Source: Psychrobacter glacincola | GTDB taxonomy: Bacteria > Pseudomonadota > Gammaproteobacteria > Pseudomonadales > Moraxellaceae | NCBI RefSeq assembly: GCF_904846215.1 | Contig: NZ_CAJGZK010000012.1 | Span: 28,836 to 92,835, forward strand | DNA length: 64,000 nt | Reading direction: 5' to 3' | Part shown: piece by piece, positions 1,163 to 14,043 of the stretch | How the letters are laid out: the number at the start of each line of letters is the position of its first letter | How positions within the stretch are numbered: position 1 is the stretch's first letter | Position numbers and translations under genes: made by a program | The notes under the pieces: generated by a model | The model's input: only the letters and a program-made list of their open reading frames with translations | Database searches by the model: none | Told to the model about the DNA's origin: nothing

Positions 1163-1855
1163 ATGTCAAAACCTTTATCACCAATGACACATCATCACGC
1201 CCAAGCTGGCTTTACGCTGGTAGAAATCGTCGTCGTCGTGGTTATTTTGTCTATATTTGCTGGCATGATGAGCTTATCAGTTGGCAGCAGTGAATCGCGT
1301 AAAAATCGCGCGTTTTATGAGCATCTGACGGATTCATTGAGTTATGTTAGATTGTTATCAGCGGAACGTATGCAGCCGATGGGTTTGAGTCTGCAAGCCA
1401 ATAAGCAAGGTCAAGTGACTCCTGTTATTGTCACTTTATCCAACCCTTATATTGCTTATCAAACGGCTGCCTCCACGTCTTCTAGTAGAGACAGCACGCC
1501 TAAAAATTCAATGGAGCTGTCTACCGATTTATCCAGTATGTCTGGTGGGATTGAAAATAAATTACCAACGCCAAGCTGGGAGGTTGAGTCAGAGGTTACT
1601 TTGCCTGAGTTACCTGCTGGTGTAAGTTTGAGTGTACAAAGTCTAGATGCTAATAATGTGTCAAATAGAGGACAAACTCAAACGATTCAACCTTGGTTTA
1701 CCGATCAAACGGTACCGCAAGTGTTATGGTTTGGCACGGGGCAAGCCGCACCGGTGACCATTGAAGTGCGCCATAATTCGCGTTTGGTGGGTGAAGTCAT
1801 CACGATTATGCCAGATGGCAACATATCGCTAGGGTCGATAGGACAAGGGCAATAG
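1163..1855 (+). CDS. gspH: Type II secretion minor pseudopilin GspH
   Basis: A 230-residue type IV pilin-like protein of the type II secretion pseudopilus. The prepilin peptidase site is at Gly16/Phe17 (GFTLVE), with Glu at +5 and a long hydrophobic helix (about residues 21-40) that anchors the precursor in the inner membrane. The globular part has a low-complexity Ser/Thr-rich stretch around residues 100-130, which is longer than in typical GspH. First gene of a tight operon: gspI starts 3 bp after the stop. The subunit is assigned from gene order H-I-J-K and the short leader. No strong Shine-Dalgarno precedes the ATG. Confidence 0.85.
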   Translation: MSKPLSPMTHHHAQAGFTLVEIVVVVVILSIFAGMMSLSVGSSESRKNRAFYEHLTDSLSYVRLLSAERMQPMGLSLQANKQGQVTPVIVTLSNPYIAYQTAASTSSSRDSTPKNSMELSTDLSSMSGGIENKLPTPSWEVESEVTLPELPAGVSLSVQSLDANNVSNRGQTQTIQPWFTDQTVPQVLWFGTGQAAPVTIEVRHNSRLVGEVITIMPDGNISLGSIGQGQ

Positions 1856-1858
1856 CTG

Positions 1859-2349
1859 ATGATGAATAATAATAAAGTCAAGCCTATATACATAAACCGA
1901 AAGCCAACCCTATCAAAGTATGAGAGTGGATTTACCTTGATTGAGGTGATGGTTGCTCTAGCGATTTTAGCGGTTGTGGCTGTGGCTGCGAGCCGTGCCA
2001 GTAGTGCTTATTTGAGCTCAGTCGATGTATTACGGACACGTACGCTTGCTCATTTTGTTGCCCAAAACGCTGCTGCTGACTTACGTATTCAAGAGACATG
2101 GCTAACGGCTAATAGCACCCAAACAATCAATGCCCAAGGTCGCGATTGGCAAATTACGATGAAGGTGGGTGAGGGTATAACGCCGGCATTAAAAGAGGTG
2201 AATATCGCCGTTGCACCTATCATAGATGGTCAGGCGCGTACCACAGTCAATGATATCAATTTGATACTTAGCAACTCAAAGCAAGAGGTTGGTCGTTTAG
2301 ATTTAGGTAGTGGTAGTACAAGCGGCTCTGGGCAAGCAGGAGTCAATCC

Positions 2350-2353
<4 letters not shown>
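1859..2353 (+). CDS. gspI: Type II secretion minor pseudopilin GspI
   Basis: A 164-residue pseudopilin. The cleavage site is Gly24/Phe25 (SGFTLIEV) with the conserved Glu at +5, then a hydrophobic helix. GspI forms the pseudopilus tip with GspJ and GspK; that role comes from the family. Two ATG codons in tandem (1859 and 1862) could both serve as start. The stop overlaps the gspJ start by the ATGA arrangement at 2350-2353, which implies translational coupling. The C-terminal 20 residues are Gly/Ser-rich. Confidence 0.87.
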
Positions 2354-3234
<881 letters not shown>

Positions 3235-3267
3235 CAGGTGCCGTTTGCTCAATAATAGAGGCTATAT

Positions 3268-4335
3268 ATGTCAAGCATGCCAGTTATGCCCATGAAAACC
3301 GACTCTCAGCGCGGGGTCGCGCTACTCACTATTTTATTACTAGTGGTCAGTATTACAGTGGTCGCAGGGGCGATGCTTGCCAGTCAAAAAATTGCCATTA
3401 GACGCAGCGGTTTGTTGTTTGATCAAAACCAGCTATTACAAGATATCGATGCTGGTCAGCAACTCGCCGTTACGATGATCCGTGCTGACGCTAATCTGAA
3501 TGATACCGATAGCGCGCAAGATATTTGGGCAAAGCCTATACCCCCTTATACCTTGGGCATACATAGCATTGGTATTGAGATGCGTGATGAAGCCAGTCGC
3601 TTTAACATCAATAATCTGTATCAAAACGGCAGGGTCGATAGTAATGCTTTGGCAGTATTTCAACGGCTATTAACCCAATTGAATTTGGCGCCAGACATTG
3701 CTATTGCTGTTCTTGATTATCAGGATGCAGACAGTGAGATTTATCAAGATGGCGGTGATGAAAGTACGGTTTATAGCCAGCAGTCTAATAACCCAGCGGA
3801 TAACGATTTACCTAATCAACGATTTGTCAATATTGAGCAGCTGCAAAATGTGAAAGGCGTAAATGCTGAGGTGTTGGCAGCGCTACGACCTTATATCACA
3901 GTCGTGCCGCATTATTTACCTATTAATATGAATACAGCCAGTCCAGTTGTACTTGCTGCTCTGATGGACGGCGCAACCAGCCAGCAGATGCAGACCATCG
4001 TCGATTTGCGGGCAAAACAAGTATTTGAGTCTATTGATGATATATGGCAATTGCCAATATTAAGCAGTCTAGATGAGCCGCAACGAAAAGCACTAGCACC
4101 ATTACTAGCGGTTGATAGCCAAGCATTTACAGCACTTATTACCTCTACTGATAATGCAACTGTTGGTCAGGCAAGACAGCGCTATGCAACCATCATTATT
4201 AGCAAAACTGCTACTGATGATACGGGAAATAGCAGTAGCAATATTAATGATAGTACTAGCAATGCCGACAACAAAAAGCCCAAAGAAGTCCGCGTGGTGA
4301 CGCAGCGACTTTGGGCATTTCGACCGAATTTTTGA
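3268..4335 (+). CDS. gspK: Type II secretion minor pseudopilin GspK
   Basis: A 355-residue tip pseudopilin. The N-terminus has a basic leader, RGVALL with cleavage after Gly16, and a hydrophobic helix; it lacks the Glu at +5 that H, I and J have, which is the known GspK hallmark. The body carries the sequence MNTASPVVLAAL, typical of the GspK helix-hairpin-helix region. Glu/Asp-rich segments near residues 130-160 match the place where GspK binds calcium, but individual ligands are not assigned. It is last in the gspHIJK operon, 33 bp after gspJ. A Ser/Asn-rich insertion precedes the C-terminus. Confidence 0.87.
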   Translation: MSSMPVMPMKTDSQRGVALLTILLLVVSITVVAGAMLASQKIAIRRSGLLFDQNQLLQDIDAGQQLAVTMIRADANLNDTDSAQDIWAKPIPPYTLGIHSIGIEMRDEASRFNINNLYQNGRVDSNALAVFQRLLTQLNLAPDIAIAVLDYQDADSEIYQDGGDESTVYSQQSNNPADNDLPNQRFVNIEQLQNVKGVNAEVLAALRPYITVVPHYLPINMNTASPVVLAALMDGATSQQMQTIVDLRAKQVFESIDDIWQLPILSSLDEPQRKALAPLLAVDSQAFTALITSTDNATVGQARQRYATIIISKTATDDTGNSSSNINDSTSNADNKKPKEVRVVTQRLWAFRPNF

Positions 4336-10165: not shown

Positions 10166-10407
10166 TTAAGTGTTTTTAAGCTTAAGTCGTGCCTTTGCAA
10201 TGGCTTTTAACAAGGCTGTTTCAAACTCGCTGTTTGTAAATTTGACCAAATAGGAGTGGGCTGGGCAAAAACCCTGAGTACCGCGCCAGTCATGCGCCAG
10301 TCATGTGCTAGCTTGATCGCCCAATCACAATAGTGCTGAGCAACGGCATCATTTTCGACCAAATCATCATGGTTTGTTTTCTTCAATTACGAATGTAGAC
10401 AGGTATT
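10166..10407 (-). pseudogene. Decayed small gene, frame broken by an 11-bp tandem duplication
   Basis: On the minus strand the peptide DDLVENDAVAQHYCDWAIKL leads into AHDWR, then the frame is lost at two tandem copies of GCGCCAGTCAT (10283-10304). Removing one copy restores a continuous frame running through GTQGFCPAHSYLVKF to ALLKAIAKARLKLKNT and TAA at 10166-10168. A second frame break lies further upstream near 10370 (FVIEENKP). About 70-80 residues of the old protein can be read. I do not recognise the family. Confidence 0.6.
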
Positions 10408-10458: not shown

Positions 10459-10881
10459 TTATTCTGCTAATAATTTGGTCAGCAATTCATCTATCTCCAC
10501 TTTCAATTCTTTGTCTTCGATTTTATTGGCAGTGATTTTTGCGTTCTGTAGGCTAGTAATAGCAGCGTCCTTTTGCCCCAACTCAACTTGGATAACCGCC
10601 ATAGAGAAAGCAATCGATGACAAATGATCTTTTGAATTGATTGCTTTGGCTTTCTCCAGTGCCTTATCATAAATGACTAACGCTTCGTCTAACCCTGCGG
10701 TGAAATCAGCCAGCGTTTCCCACTGTTCAGGATGGTCTTTATCGGTATTTTCATTATCGACACAAATCGCTTTTAACTCATCATATAGCCAACTAAAGGC
10801 TTCTTGATGACCTTTTCTATCGGCTTCTAGTAGCTTTTCAGCCAAGGTATAGATAGACTTATATATTTTGGTATTAATCAT
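10459..10881 (-). CDS. Hypothetical helical (TPR-like) protein
   Basis: A 140-residue cytoplasmic, acidic, all-helical protein with no signal peptide. Segments such as GLDEALVIYDKALEKAKAI and LGQKDAAITSLQNAKITANK have the small/large residue spacing of tetratricopeptide repeats, suggesting two to three TPR-like units, so a protein-binding role is possible. AAGGAAG lies just upstream of the ATG on the minus strand and supports the start. Function unknown. It lies between two decayed regions. Confidence 0.7.
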   Translation of the reverse strand: MINTKIYKSIYTLAEKLLEADRKGHQEAFSWLYDELKAICVDNENTDKDHPEQWETLADFTAGLDEALVIYDKALEKAKAINSKDHLSSIAFSMAVIQVELGQKDAAITSLQNAKITANKIEDKELKVEIDELLTKLLAE

Positions 10882-11139: not shown

Positions 11140-11422
11140 GAGAAATATGCTTTTGTGGTGGATATCAAAATTGTGCCTTTGCCCAAGATGGTCTGACCAC
11201 GGCGCCTAAGACTTATGTGCTTGCTTAGACTGAGGCGGCAAAAAATTCATACCAGCAGTACCGTCGCGTTTTTAGGGTATTTTGACTATAGTTAGCGGTT
11301 TGGAGGCAAAAGATGCGGTCAGCGCCATGAGCACCAACGCGCAGGCGCAGGCTTTGATAGGCTTTAAAAACGGCAAGCAGAGGTTTTGCAATGCAGCGGT
11401 TTTTATTTTGAGAGAATTATAA
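11140..11422 (+). pseudogene. Gene remnants flanking an inserted MITE fragment
   Basis: After GTAGGAG at about 11137, a readable segment contains YQNCAFAQDGLTTAPKTY, resembling the end of a signal peptide (AFA before QDG). It stops at the MITE fragment (11218-11290). Beyond the MITE an open frame at 11297-11422 reads GLEAKDAVSAMSTNAQ, ALIGFKNGKQRF and ends FILREL with TAA. The two pieces could be the 5' and 3' parts of one lost secreted protein. Family not recognised; linkage is inferred. Confidence 0.4.
11218..11290 (+). repeat. MITE-like element, copy 5 (right part, degenerate core)
   Basis: It begins within the core (TGCTTGCTTAGACTGAGGCGGC) and continues through the A right arm (ATACCAGCAGTACCGTCGCG) to the intact terminus TTTTGACTATA. 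The left half is missing. Confidence 0.8.
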
Positions 11423-12349
11423 GCAGTTTTTATAATCATAAGCTGAGATACGAGGGCTTTTGCTATAGTTTTCGTTGGCACATAAAAATTTATCGAAGCG
11501 GGTATCATTATTCATATAACGCTGCATCCAGGCGATGCCAGGCTTACTTAAGAGTATCTCGTTAAAGCGGTAGCTTGGACAAAAGTGACTGCCATTGTTT
11601 ACTTCAACCTTCATCTTGGGGCCGATGGTATCTTTATAGAACGCATTGGCATATTTCTTATTCTCAGCAATCCGGTCATTCTCGCAGGTAATGACTAAGG
11701 TTGGCGTTTTTACCTCGCCATAGCTTTTGTCATAATAGGGTGCTAGTGGCATAATAGCGCGTACTGTGCTGCGCTCCGTTGCCAGTTTAAGCGCACCGCC
11801 ACCGCCCATTGACCAGCCAATAGCGCCCAACCGCTCAGGATCTATCATACTGCCGACGGTGTCATCGGCAATCATCTGGTCTAGCGCCGCATTCAGCTGT
11901 GTTGCTCTACTGTCGGGATCATCGTAGATAGAGTTGGTATTGATGGTGATAACGACAAAGCCCCAAGAAGCCAGACGCGGTCCCCACCACTTGATAGAAT
12001 TCTCGTAAGAAACGTAACCAGGAACCACGGCAATAGCGCCTAACAGACCGCAGCCGCTAGCGTTGGTCGGGTAGTGAATCGTACCACCACCGAACCCTTT
12101 TGCCGACTGGCGCCCTAGAGATTTGGTAGCGATAGAAAAAGGACCCTTATCGCGCGTGCCTGATAGCGCATCGGCGCTAATCGCGCTATCGGCGATGCAA
12201 TGAGGGATGGCTGATGCAGTAGATGCTAGAGTCACTGGTAATGCAGGTGTTAGCAATAATTTTTCTGATGTAAAAGCGGTCACATTCATCGAAAATAGCA
12301 GCGCGCTAGTAGCGATTATTGATGTCGAAAAAAAAGGTATATTTAGCAT
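11417..12349 (-). CDS. Secreted PETase-like polyester hydrolase / Moraxella Lip1-type lipase
   Basis: A 310-residue alpha/beta hydrolase with an N-terminal export signal (hydrophobic residues 9-21, likely cleavage after VTA). It follows the PET hydrolase/cutinase family throughout: oxyanion PGY (Tyr112), SIKWWGPRLASWGFVVITI, nucleophile motif GWSMGGGG (Ser180, with Trp179 and Met181), Asp225 in CENDRIA, His255 in GSHFC. Two disulfides expected in type II PETases are present: Cys222-Cys257 next to the active site and Cys290-Cys309 at the C-terminus. The position of IsPETase Ser238 is Phe256, and Tyr205/206 stands for Trp185. It probably hydrolyses esters or polyesters outside the cell. No clear Shine-Dalgarno is seen. 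Confidence 0.9.
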   Translation of the reverse strand: MLNIPFFSTSIIATSALLFSMNVTAFTSEKLLLTPALPVTLASTASAIPHCIADSAISADALSGTRDKGPFSIATKSLGRQSAKGFGGGTIHYPTNASGCGLLGAIAVVPGYVSYENSIKWWGPRLASWGFVVITINTNSIYDDPDSRATQLNAALDQMIADDTVGSMIDPERLGAIGWSMGGGGALKLATERSTVRAIMPLAPYYDKSYGEVKTPTLVITCENDRIAENKKYANAFYKDTIGPKMKVEVNNGSHFCPSYRFNEILLSKPGIAWMQRYMNNDTRFDKFLCANENYSKSPRISAYDYKNCL

Positions 12350-12795
12350 GATAAATGATCTGTTTTATAAAGGTCTTTTGGCGAGTTATGATACGTTTTT
12401 AATTACTATCAATAATGAAAGACAGTAAAATAATGGTAGACACTAATCTGCTGTGTGTCAAAAATATAAATCACCTATACAGTACTGAGTGCAGATAAGT
12501 AACATAGTAGAACCTGAGTTTGTTGTGTGCTGTGATAATATAAAACATAGCTGCTTTTATTCACAAGATTTTGATGAACGCCGCTGTAATTGACAGCACT
12601 ATGGTTAGAATGACTTATTTCTAAATTTTTTGGCTATAAATCACGGGTTTTTACAATCACAGATTAATAGTCATGAGATGTTTTACACCTCATCGCCAAA
12701 TTCCTATTACTCACGCCCATTTAGCCTAAGCTAAAAGAGCCTTTTTTATAGTCAGCACTCTTTTGAATAATGATATAAATATTAATGCTACGAAC
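12350..12795. other. Intergenic region between divergent hydrolase and MFS genes
   Basis: 446 bp of AT-rich sequence that must hold both promoters. I see no convincing gene or hairpin. A single TATAGTCAGC at 12748-12757 resembles one MITE end but has no partner. Confidence 0.5.
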
Positions 12796-14043
12796 ATGAC
12801 TAAAGATAAAAGTAACGGTGAAAATAGCGCTTTAACTGGACGCGGTATCCAAGCGCTCACAAAAGTACCTTTTGATTCGCCTTCATGGATATTAAAGCTA
12901 ACGATCGGTCTGATTGGGATGTTTGCCTTTTTGCAGGTATATTCTATTCAGGCAGTTTTGCCAGTATTAATGGTGGATTTTTCAGCCACTGAAGTGCAGG
13001 CAGGGATGATTGTGGGCGCGACAGTGATGGCTATTGCCATTATGTCACCGTTTCTAGGTATGCTGTCGGATGCGGTCGGGCGTAAATCCTTTATTGTTGG
13101 CGCACTGTTGTTTTTAGCGATACCCACGGCTTTAATCGCTCAAAGCCCCAGTATTGGCTGGATTGGCATGTGGCGGTTTATGCAAGGATTATCTGTGCCA
13201 GGTATCACAGTGGTGACCATTGCTTATATCGGTGAGGAGTTCGAGGGGCGGGCTGTCACAGAGCTGATGTCATTCTATGTCTCAGGCTCAGTACTCGGCG
13301 GCTTTATGGGGCGATTTTTGCTGGGGCATTTGCATGAATATATTGGCTGGCGTGCAGGCTATTATGTGATGGCAGCGATGACACTTATCGGTGCGTTATG
13401 GGTTGGTAAAATGCTGCCCTCATCGCGGCATTTTGTGGCCAATCCAAACTTTCGCTCAGCGATGCAAACGCTTGGTGAGCATCTGACTAACCGTTATGTG
13501 GTAACCGCCTGTTTGCTTGGTGCTTGCGTACTGTTTTCGCTCGTAGGCTGCTTTACTTTTATCAATCTACATCTTGCTGGCACGCCTTATGAGCTTGGCA
13601 CTGGCGCACTTGCCAATATTTTTGCGGTGTATTTAATCGGAGTGATTATCACGCCATTGTCGACCACACTATTACGTCGATTTGGCGCAGCACGCACCGT
13701 TCGAGTGGCAGTGATTTTTTCGATGCTTGGTGCGCTATTAACACTGGTCACGCCATTATGGGGTATTGTCGTTGGGCTTGCTATTATGTCGTCAGGCGTC
13801 TTTATTACCCAAGCGGCAACCATCAGTTATATTGCAGTCAATGTCACAAAAGGTCGCTCATTAGCCTCGGGTTTATATTACATGGCTTATTATGCAGGCG
13901 GTACGATGGGCGCGTGGCTGTGTGGTATCGTTTATGCGCGTGGACAGTGGTCAATGACGGTTTGGCTGTTATTATTTGTGCAAGTATTGGCACTTTTGGT
14001 CGCAAGTTTTGGCATGATAAAAACAAAACCGCGTCCTGCTTAA
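12796..14043 (+). CDS. MFS transporter (YnfM-like)
   Basis: About 415 residues from the ATG at 12796; an in-frame TTG lies 33 bp upstream, and neither has an obvious ribosome site. It has twelve hydrophobic segments and the MFS loop signature after TM2 (LGMLSDAVGRKSFIVG, residues about 88-103). The first half (VYSIQAVLPVLMVDF, RFMQGLSVPGITVV) resembles the YnfM/arabinose-efflux type of drug:H+ antiporter. It is an inner-membrane exporter by family; the substrate is unknown. The AMP-ligase gene begins 251 bp downstream. Confidence 0.85.
   Translation: MTKDKSNGENSALTGRGIQALTKVPFDSPSWILKLTIGLIGMFAFLQVYSIQAVLPVLMVDFSATEVQAGMIVGATVMAIAIMSPFLGMLSDAVGRKSFIVGALLFLAIPTALIAQSPSIGWIGMWRFMQGLSVPGITVVTIAYIGEEFEGRAVTELMSFYVSGSVLGGFMGRFLLGHLHEYIGWRAGYYVMAAMTLIGALWVGKMLPSSRHFVANPNFRSAMQTLGEHLTNRYVVTACLLGACVLFSLVGCFTFINLHLAGTPYELGTGALANIFAVYLIGVIITPLSTTLLRRFGAARTVRVAVIFSMLGALLTLVTPLWGIVVGLAIMSSGVFITQAATISYIAVNVTKGRSLASGLYYMAYYAGGTMGAWLCGIVYARGQWSMTVWLLLFVQVLALLVASFGMIKTKPRPA

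Follow-up and report, generated by a model that had tools for sequence, protein, structure and literature searches.

A gene in a 64,000-nucleotide window of Psychrobacter glacincola DNA (the window being the whole stretch that was analysed) encodes a protein closely akin to an enzyme that has already been solved and assayed, the cold-active PETase of Moraxella sp. TA144 known as Mors1, Lip1 or MoPE (UniProt P19833, PDB 8SPK). The mature parts are identical at 239 of 260 residues (92%) and differ at 21. Because of this identity, the window protein is very probably a secreted, cold-active serine hydrolase, predicted to cut the esters of lipids, aliphatic polyesters and, slowly, PET. The initial annotation had described a PETase-like hydrolase from the family of Lip1. 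It missed how near the protein stands to the solved enzyme, and it missed a second copy elsewhere in the same genome. The features discussed below are collected in Table 1.

Table 1. Features in the window, and the second gene copy outside it
Feature	Coordinates	Strand	Basis or remark
Four type II secretion pseudopilin genes	1163..4335	+	Pfam identifies I, J and K; the first gene is assigned from N_methyl and position alone
MBL-fold gene remnants	10175..10386	-	internal stop
140-aa ORF between PETase gene and MBL remnants	10459..10881	-	weak TPR match, below cut-off
PETase-family hydrolase, Mors1/Lip1 ortholog	11417..12349	-	ATG start, 310 aa
Phe256 codon (IsPETase Ser238 position, type IIa)	11582..11584	-	IsPETase alignment
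Catalytic His255 codon	11585..11587	-	IsPETase alignment
Catalytic Asp225 codon	11675..11677	-	IsPETase alignment
47 bases at the nucleophile (GWSMGGGG)	11781..11827	-	identical to contig C11 copy
Catalytic Ser180 codon	11810..11812	-	translation and IsPETase alignment
Predicted secretion signal: codons 1-50, a hydrophobic leader plus linker	12200..12349	-	by eye
Divergent MFS transporter gene	12763..14043	+	
Second PETase-family gene, 295 aa	G000:C11:8551-9402 (L002:1495-2382)		contig C11 of the window's genome

The closeness to Mors1 is seen in sequence, predicted structure and phylogeny alike. The top solved relative by phmmer is PDB 8spk_A ('Lipase 1', E 5e-166), from an entry titled 'Crystal structure of Antarctic PET-degrading enzyme'. 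The best of five AlphaFold2 models, built on a 30-row alignment, has a pLDDT of 80.4 and a pTM of 0.80 (the other four reach a pLDDT of 67.6-69.1), and its first two Foldseek hits are 8spk_B and 8spk_A (TMt 0.95 and 0.94, 1.5 A, 92%). At 28 IsPETase positions compared, Mors1 has the same residue as the window protein at 27, and the last is a gap in both. A phylogeny had been set beforehand as a test capable of refuting the assignment. The maximum-likelihood tree, inferred under LG+G4 from 245 columns with LCC as root, puts the protein inside the polyester-hydrolase clade, as sister to the pair formed by Mors1 and the database protein P0002 (UFboot 99), and these three sit within a genus clade of 57 tips (support 100). 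The kinship with Lip1 was thus well judged. The protein also has Cys51, Cys100, Tyr205 and Asp144, which together with the tree grouping mark a Mors1 ortholog. Therefore, the window gene is best regarded as a further copy of a known enzyme. It differs from Mors1 in having a leader from a different lineage and in lying in a genome that also contains a second, IIb-like copy.

What is known of Mors1 thus bears directly on the window protein. The passages of a 2024 review concerned with this enzyme (PMC11509169) relate that it was found in Moraxella sp. TA144 through a search with IsPETase, and that it brings about a weight loss of 1.98% in amorphous PET film over 6 days at 25 C. It clears a PCL suspension with an optimum of 25 C and has a Tm of 52 C. 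According to the same passages, it has a third disulfide, Cys60-Cys109, Tyr214 and Asp153 lie in subsite I, and subsite II is nearly the same as in other type IIa enzymes. A Mors1 loop chimera without the active-site disulfide lost activity completely (PMC11509169). At a constant offset of nine, Cys60-Cys109, Tyr214 and Asp153 correspond to Cys51-Cys100, Tyr205 and Asp144 of the window protein. MoPE has also been used as a PET-active enzyme in work excerpted from PMC11187625.

Alignment to IsPETase and translation of the gene agree with all the residues named in the initial annotation. Trp179, Ser180 and Met181 match IsPETase Trp159, Ser160 and Met161, while Asp225 and His255 match Asp206 and His237, which completes the proposed triad; Tyr112 matches Tyr87. 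There are six cysteines, at 51, 100, 222, 257, 290 and 309, and Mors1 shares all six. Cys222 and Cys257, put forward as the type II active-site pair, align with Cys203 and Cys239 (the bond itself has been described for Mors1), Cys290 and Cys309 align with Cys273 and Cys289, and Cys51 and Cys100 are those of the third Mors1 disulfide. The loop after His255 is extended, as had been claimed, relative to LCC, but it is one residue shorter than that of IsPETase. Family membership is likewise secure, the Pfam PETase model PF12740 giving 282.5 bits where its cut-off is 28, and the description of the genus as cold-adapted is supported. For the NCBIfam BHET hydrolase equivalog NF051441 the protein lies far below the cut-off (243.9 bits against 520). 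An M5 PETase motif has been set out in PMC12224614 as GGGG, PGY/PGF, Met after Ser and DxDxR(Y)xxFxC. The first three elements are present in the window protein; the last reads NNDTRFDKFLC, with Asn for the first Asp of the pattern. This segment is the same in Moraxella P19833, which the available text of PMC12224614 counts as M5, naming Moraxella TA144 as the source of an early M5 PETase.

One part of the initial annotation did not hold. Phe256 and Tyr205 do replace IsPETase Ser238 and Trp185, but the likeness to type IIb relatives that was drawn from them is mistaken. In the account of Joo et al. (2018; PMC5785972), as far as it was available, type IIa is defined by Phe or Tyr where IsPETase has Ser238, and all four type IIb enzymes of their set are from Burkholderiales. 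Phe256 thus places the window protein in type IIa. Both Ser238 and Trp185 are retained in the three IIb references of this analysis, which form a separate clade in the tree (support 100). Type IIb is therefore ruled out by Phe256, by the loop sequence (PSYRFNE compared with ANSGNSNQ in IsPETase) and by a tree position outside the IIb clade.

Comparison with other known enzymes fits this placement. IsPETase of Ideonella sakaiensis, a type IIb enzyme, is 46% identical (110/238) and has in common with the window protein the triad, Trp159, Met161, Tyr87 and two disulfides, whereas its Ser238, Trp185 and Gln119 are replaced by Phe256, Tyr205 and Asp144. LCC, a type I cutinase 43% identical to the window protein, has the same fold and triad but lacks both the cysteines of the active-site disulfide and the loop extension, and it has His in place of Trp159. 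Closer are PET6 of Vibrio gazogenes (7Z6B; 51%) and the enzymes of entries 8AIT and 8AIS (50% and 49%). Like the window protein, these have a IIa residue at 238, the triad and the active-site cysteines; unlike it, they have Trp185 and Gln119, and their active-site Cys is followed by Ala-Asn. A PET hydrolase predicted in Psychrobacter nivimaris LAMA 639 belongs to the same genus and occupies the same gene site. The 2022 paper that described it (PMC8857425) puts its identity to P19833 at 69.5%; its identity to the window protein is 69%. Two further database proteins, P0133 and P0137, combine PETase domains with additional PF14200 and PF00652 domains. We take these to be ricin-type lectin families, and they may possibly serve substrate binding.

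How would the protein leave the cell? Residues 1-47 have a pLDDT below 50 in the model, and the leader has its first Lys at residue 30, with no Lys or Arg ahead of it. Because of this, and because P0002 has a leader from a different lineage, export is less sure than it is for Mors1. A type II secretion pseudopilin operon had been pointed out nearby. It is real, lies 7.1 kb from the PETase gene and carries N_methyl, T2SSI, T2SSJ and T2SSK domains, and a GspD secretin scores over its cut-off on contig C7 of the same genome. Going by these genes, export of the window protein by type II secretion is plausible.

The leader also raises the question of whether the gene is a mosaic. It shares 26 identical residues with the leader of P0036 (42 residues long) and 16 with that of P0002 (56 residues long). 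In the mature part the order is reversed, with 244/260 residues identical to P0002 and 201/260 to P0036. The DNA behaves similarly. The promoter and leader (window 12200-12760) find their best matches in loci L091/L006 and L093/L013 (about 74% over 112-114 bases), and the mature part in L003/L111 (84.7% over 776 bases). The same leader with a similar mature start is seen in the database proteins P0003 and P0083. Perhaps, then, a mature part of the Mors1/P. okhotskensis lineage acquired a promoter and leader like those of P. immobilis/P. luti by recombination near codon 50. We place this slightly below an even chance. Since leaders diverge quickly, and the DNA of this one finds matches of only about 71-74% identity at best, an unsampled lineage explains the discordance equally well. 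A promoter scan gave 10 sites (5.2 +/- 2.1 in shuffles), among them a 10/12 match that precedes the PETase gene at 12461-12433; all are consensus matches only.

By analogy with the family, the window protein would be exported by Sec through its leader, would fold in the periplasm with three disulfides and might then be released by the type II system. Ser180, activated by His255 and Asp225, would attack the ester carbonyl in a cleft that is probably lined by Tyr112, Trp179, Met181 and Tyr205. The family chemistry presumably proceeds through an acyl-enzyme at Ser180, with an oxyanion hole formed by the backbone of Met181 and Tyr112, and water would then release the acid. The active-site disulfide Cys222-Cys257 likely keeps the His loop in place.

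What might the natural substrate be? The literature searched contained no assay of the window protein. No Tannase-family (MHETase-type) gene was found in its genome; the same search matched 0/14 control genomes and, when repeated over the order, 12/76. This speaks against PET as a growth substrate, and a PET catabolic cluster is rejected on the same ground. Given this negative search, and given that its closest characterised relative was originally called a lipase, the enzyme more probably acts in nature on esters or lipids than on PET. Its likely role is to scavenge substrates with ester bonds, PET being hydrolysed on the side.

One might go further and see in the protein no more than a common extracellular lipase or cutinase-like esterase with negligible PET activity. 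Phe256 makes subsite II narrower, a trait of type I and IIa enzymes, and an S238F substitution dramatically decreased the activity of IsPETase in the data excerpted from Joo et al. (PMC5785972). The exchanges of Trp185 and Gln119 for Tyr205 and Asp144 point the same way, as does the failure to find a Tannase-family gene. P19833 is annotated by UniProt as a triacylglycerol lipase, according to PMC12224614, and PET product release by MoPE is put at almost 300-fold below that of LCC-ICCG in PMC11187625. However, Mors1 has the same residues at the compared positions and still degrades PET film at 25 C, which leaves an enzyme devoid of meaningful PET activity an unlikely reading. A secreted cold-active hydrolase that acts slowly on PET remains the preferred one.

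A PETase match is present in 50 of 105 genus genomes searched, and only the window's own genome has two full copies (in G048 there are two PETase fragments, and in G030 a further short match shares the frame of the first). The site is largely constant. An MFS gene lies within 1.5 kb of 48 of the 49 other genus copies, and 47 of them have a complete or partial MBL-fold gene in the 1.5-kb flank, with an ankyrin-repeat gene in between at some sites. At the window site the MFS gene is retained and the MBL-fold gene survives only as remnants. The MFS site was examined in 14 other genomes, all without a PETase match. In eight (G002, G003, G036, G040, G041, G069, G079 and G104) the MFS and MBL matches are 344-569 bases apart with no PETase match between them at E 0.01. 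The spacing is about 1.8-2 kb in G053 and G054, the two matches are on separate contigs in G092, and no MBL match was found in G001, G031 and G043. Being filled in some genomes and empty at the same site in others, the locus marks the PETase as a presence/absence gene at a fixed site. This patchiness could also be read as a recent, plastic-era acquisition serving growth on PET, which is very improbable given the genus-wide constancy of the site, the spread of copies over a broad genus clade, the failure to find a Tannase-family gene and a Lip1 sequence dating from 1990 (as stated in PMC12224614).

The neighbour gene is named MBL-fold because of its predicted structure and of three UniRef labels among 120 listed relatives. 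It forms a family of 248-aa proteins, often in tandem (e.g., L002:548-1294 and L072:6750-7496), and the copies tried had no Pfam, NCBIfam or PDB sequence match. The best of five models has a pLDDT of 77.1 (others 47.2-74.8), and all 50 listed hits of a structure search are metallo-beta-lactamases (prob 1.00, TMq 0.50-0.58), at an rmsd of 5.5-8.6 A and 10-15% identity. Where HxHxDH is expected the family has HPFHTVHC, and the third His is not invariant. A strict functional pairing of this gene with the PETase was considered and is weakened, since the MBL-fold gene occurs in 96 of the 105 Psychrobacter genomes and the PETase in 50.

The second PETase gene of P. glacincola differs from the window gene in several respects. 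Its product is identical at 192 of 295 aligned residues (65%). Upstream is an iron-type alcohol dehydrogenase-like gene (by eye) instead of the MFS gene, and two complete MBL-fold genes follow. At position 238, the 51 genus copies have Phe (46), Leu (3) or, in the second copy, Ser (1), the position being absent in fragment L051. The second copy alone has Gln119 and Asn241, and these, like its Ser238, are the IsPETase residues. Its Ala240 is also found in a number of other genus copies, and Tyr at 185 is common to all 51. The tree sets it apart from the genus clade and groups it with P0121, P0123 and P0124 (support 99), of which P0123 has Tyr and P0124 Phe at 238. Nearby P0122 and P0125 combine Ser238, Trp185 and Gln119, which makes them similar to the IIb set. 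The second copy and all these neighbours nevertheless belong to the IIa side (support 90) and are separate from the IIb clade, and we read the Ser238 of this group as having probably arisen independently of the IIb enzymes. Neither a pair of PETases in Psychrobacter nor IIb-like enzymes from this genus turned up in a search of the open-licence literature. Two other relatives, P0126 and P0127, are 71-73% identical to the second copy and come from Aurantivibrio plasticivorans, a name not found among the literature matches listed, and a Cellvibrionaceae MAG. Elsewhere in the order, one genome has a tandem pair of PETase-family genes (L058/L070, G201:C6:136394-138439).

The two genes share one identical stretch of 47 bases at the nucleophile, and the next longest identical block is 14 bases. 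When a 47-base span shifted by 3 bases is compared in 12 other loci, they differ at only 3-11 sites; much of the identity may therefore reflect constraint at the nucleophile. Gene conversion is at most a candidate cause. Three database proteins (P0001, P0017 and P0003, among the 120 listed of 2346 relatives) combine a window-type N half with a C11-type C half, with the switch falling between window residues 172 and 192, a range that spans the 47-base block. They are on short contigs of 2295, 1563 and 1086 bases. The simplest cause is assembly error, though they may be real recombinants. A different kind of variant is P0083, a window-type protein of 239 aa in which two LGAI repeats flank an internal in-frame gap (by eye). 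The gap may reflect either a true deletion or faulty assembly. It is a rather doubtful proposition that a single cold-adapted Psychrobacter has both a Mors1-like IIa PETase and a IIb-like one (Gln119, Ser238, Ala240, Asn241), with the IIb-like residues gained independently of Burkholderiales, and that the genes recombine through the 47-base stretch to give natural chimeric PETases. If true, the IIa N half joined to a IIb-like C half would be a natural half swap, akin to the engineered loop exchange of Mors1.

With the window gene, the well-studied cold-active PETase Mors1 gains a close ortholog and is seen to represent a gene carried by many Psychrobacter genomes but not all, so that natural variation can be read against cold activity. 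The conserved MFS and MBL-fold neighbourhood offers a handle on the physiological substrate. Finally, the presence of a IIa and a IIb-like enzyme in one genome would provide a natural test of whether Ser238 is what improves the IIb enzymes.
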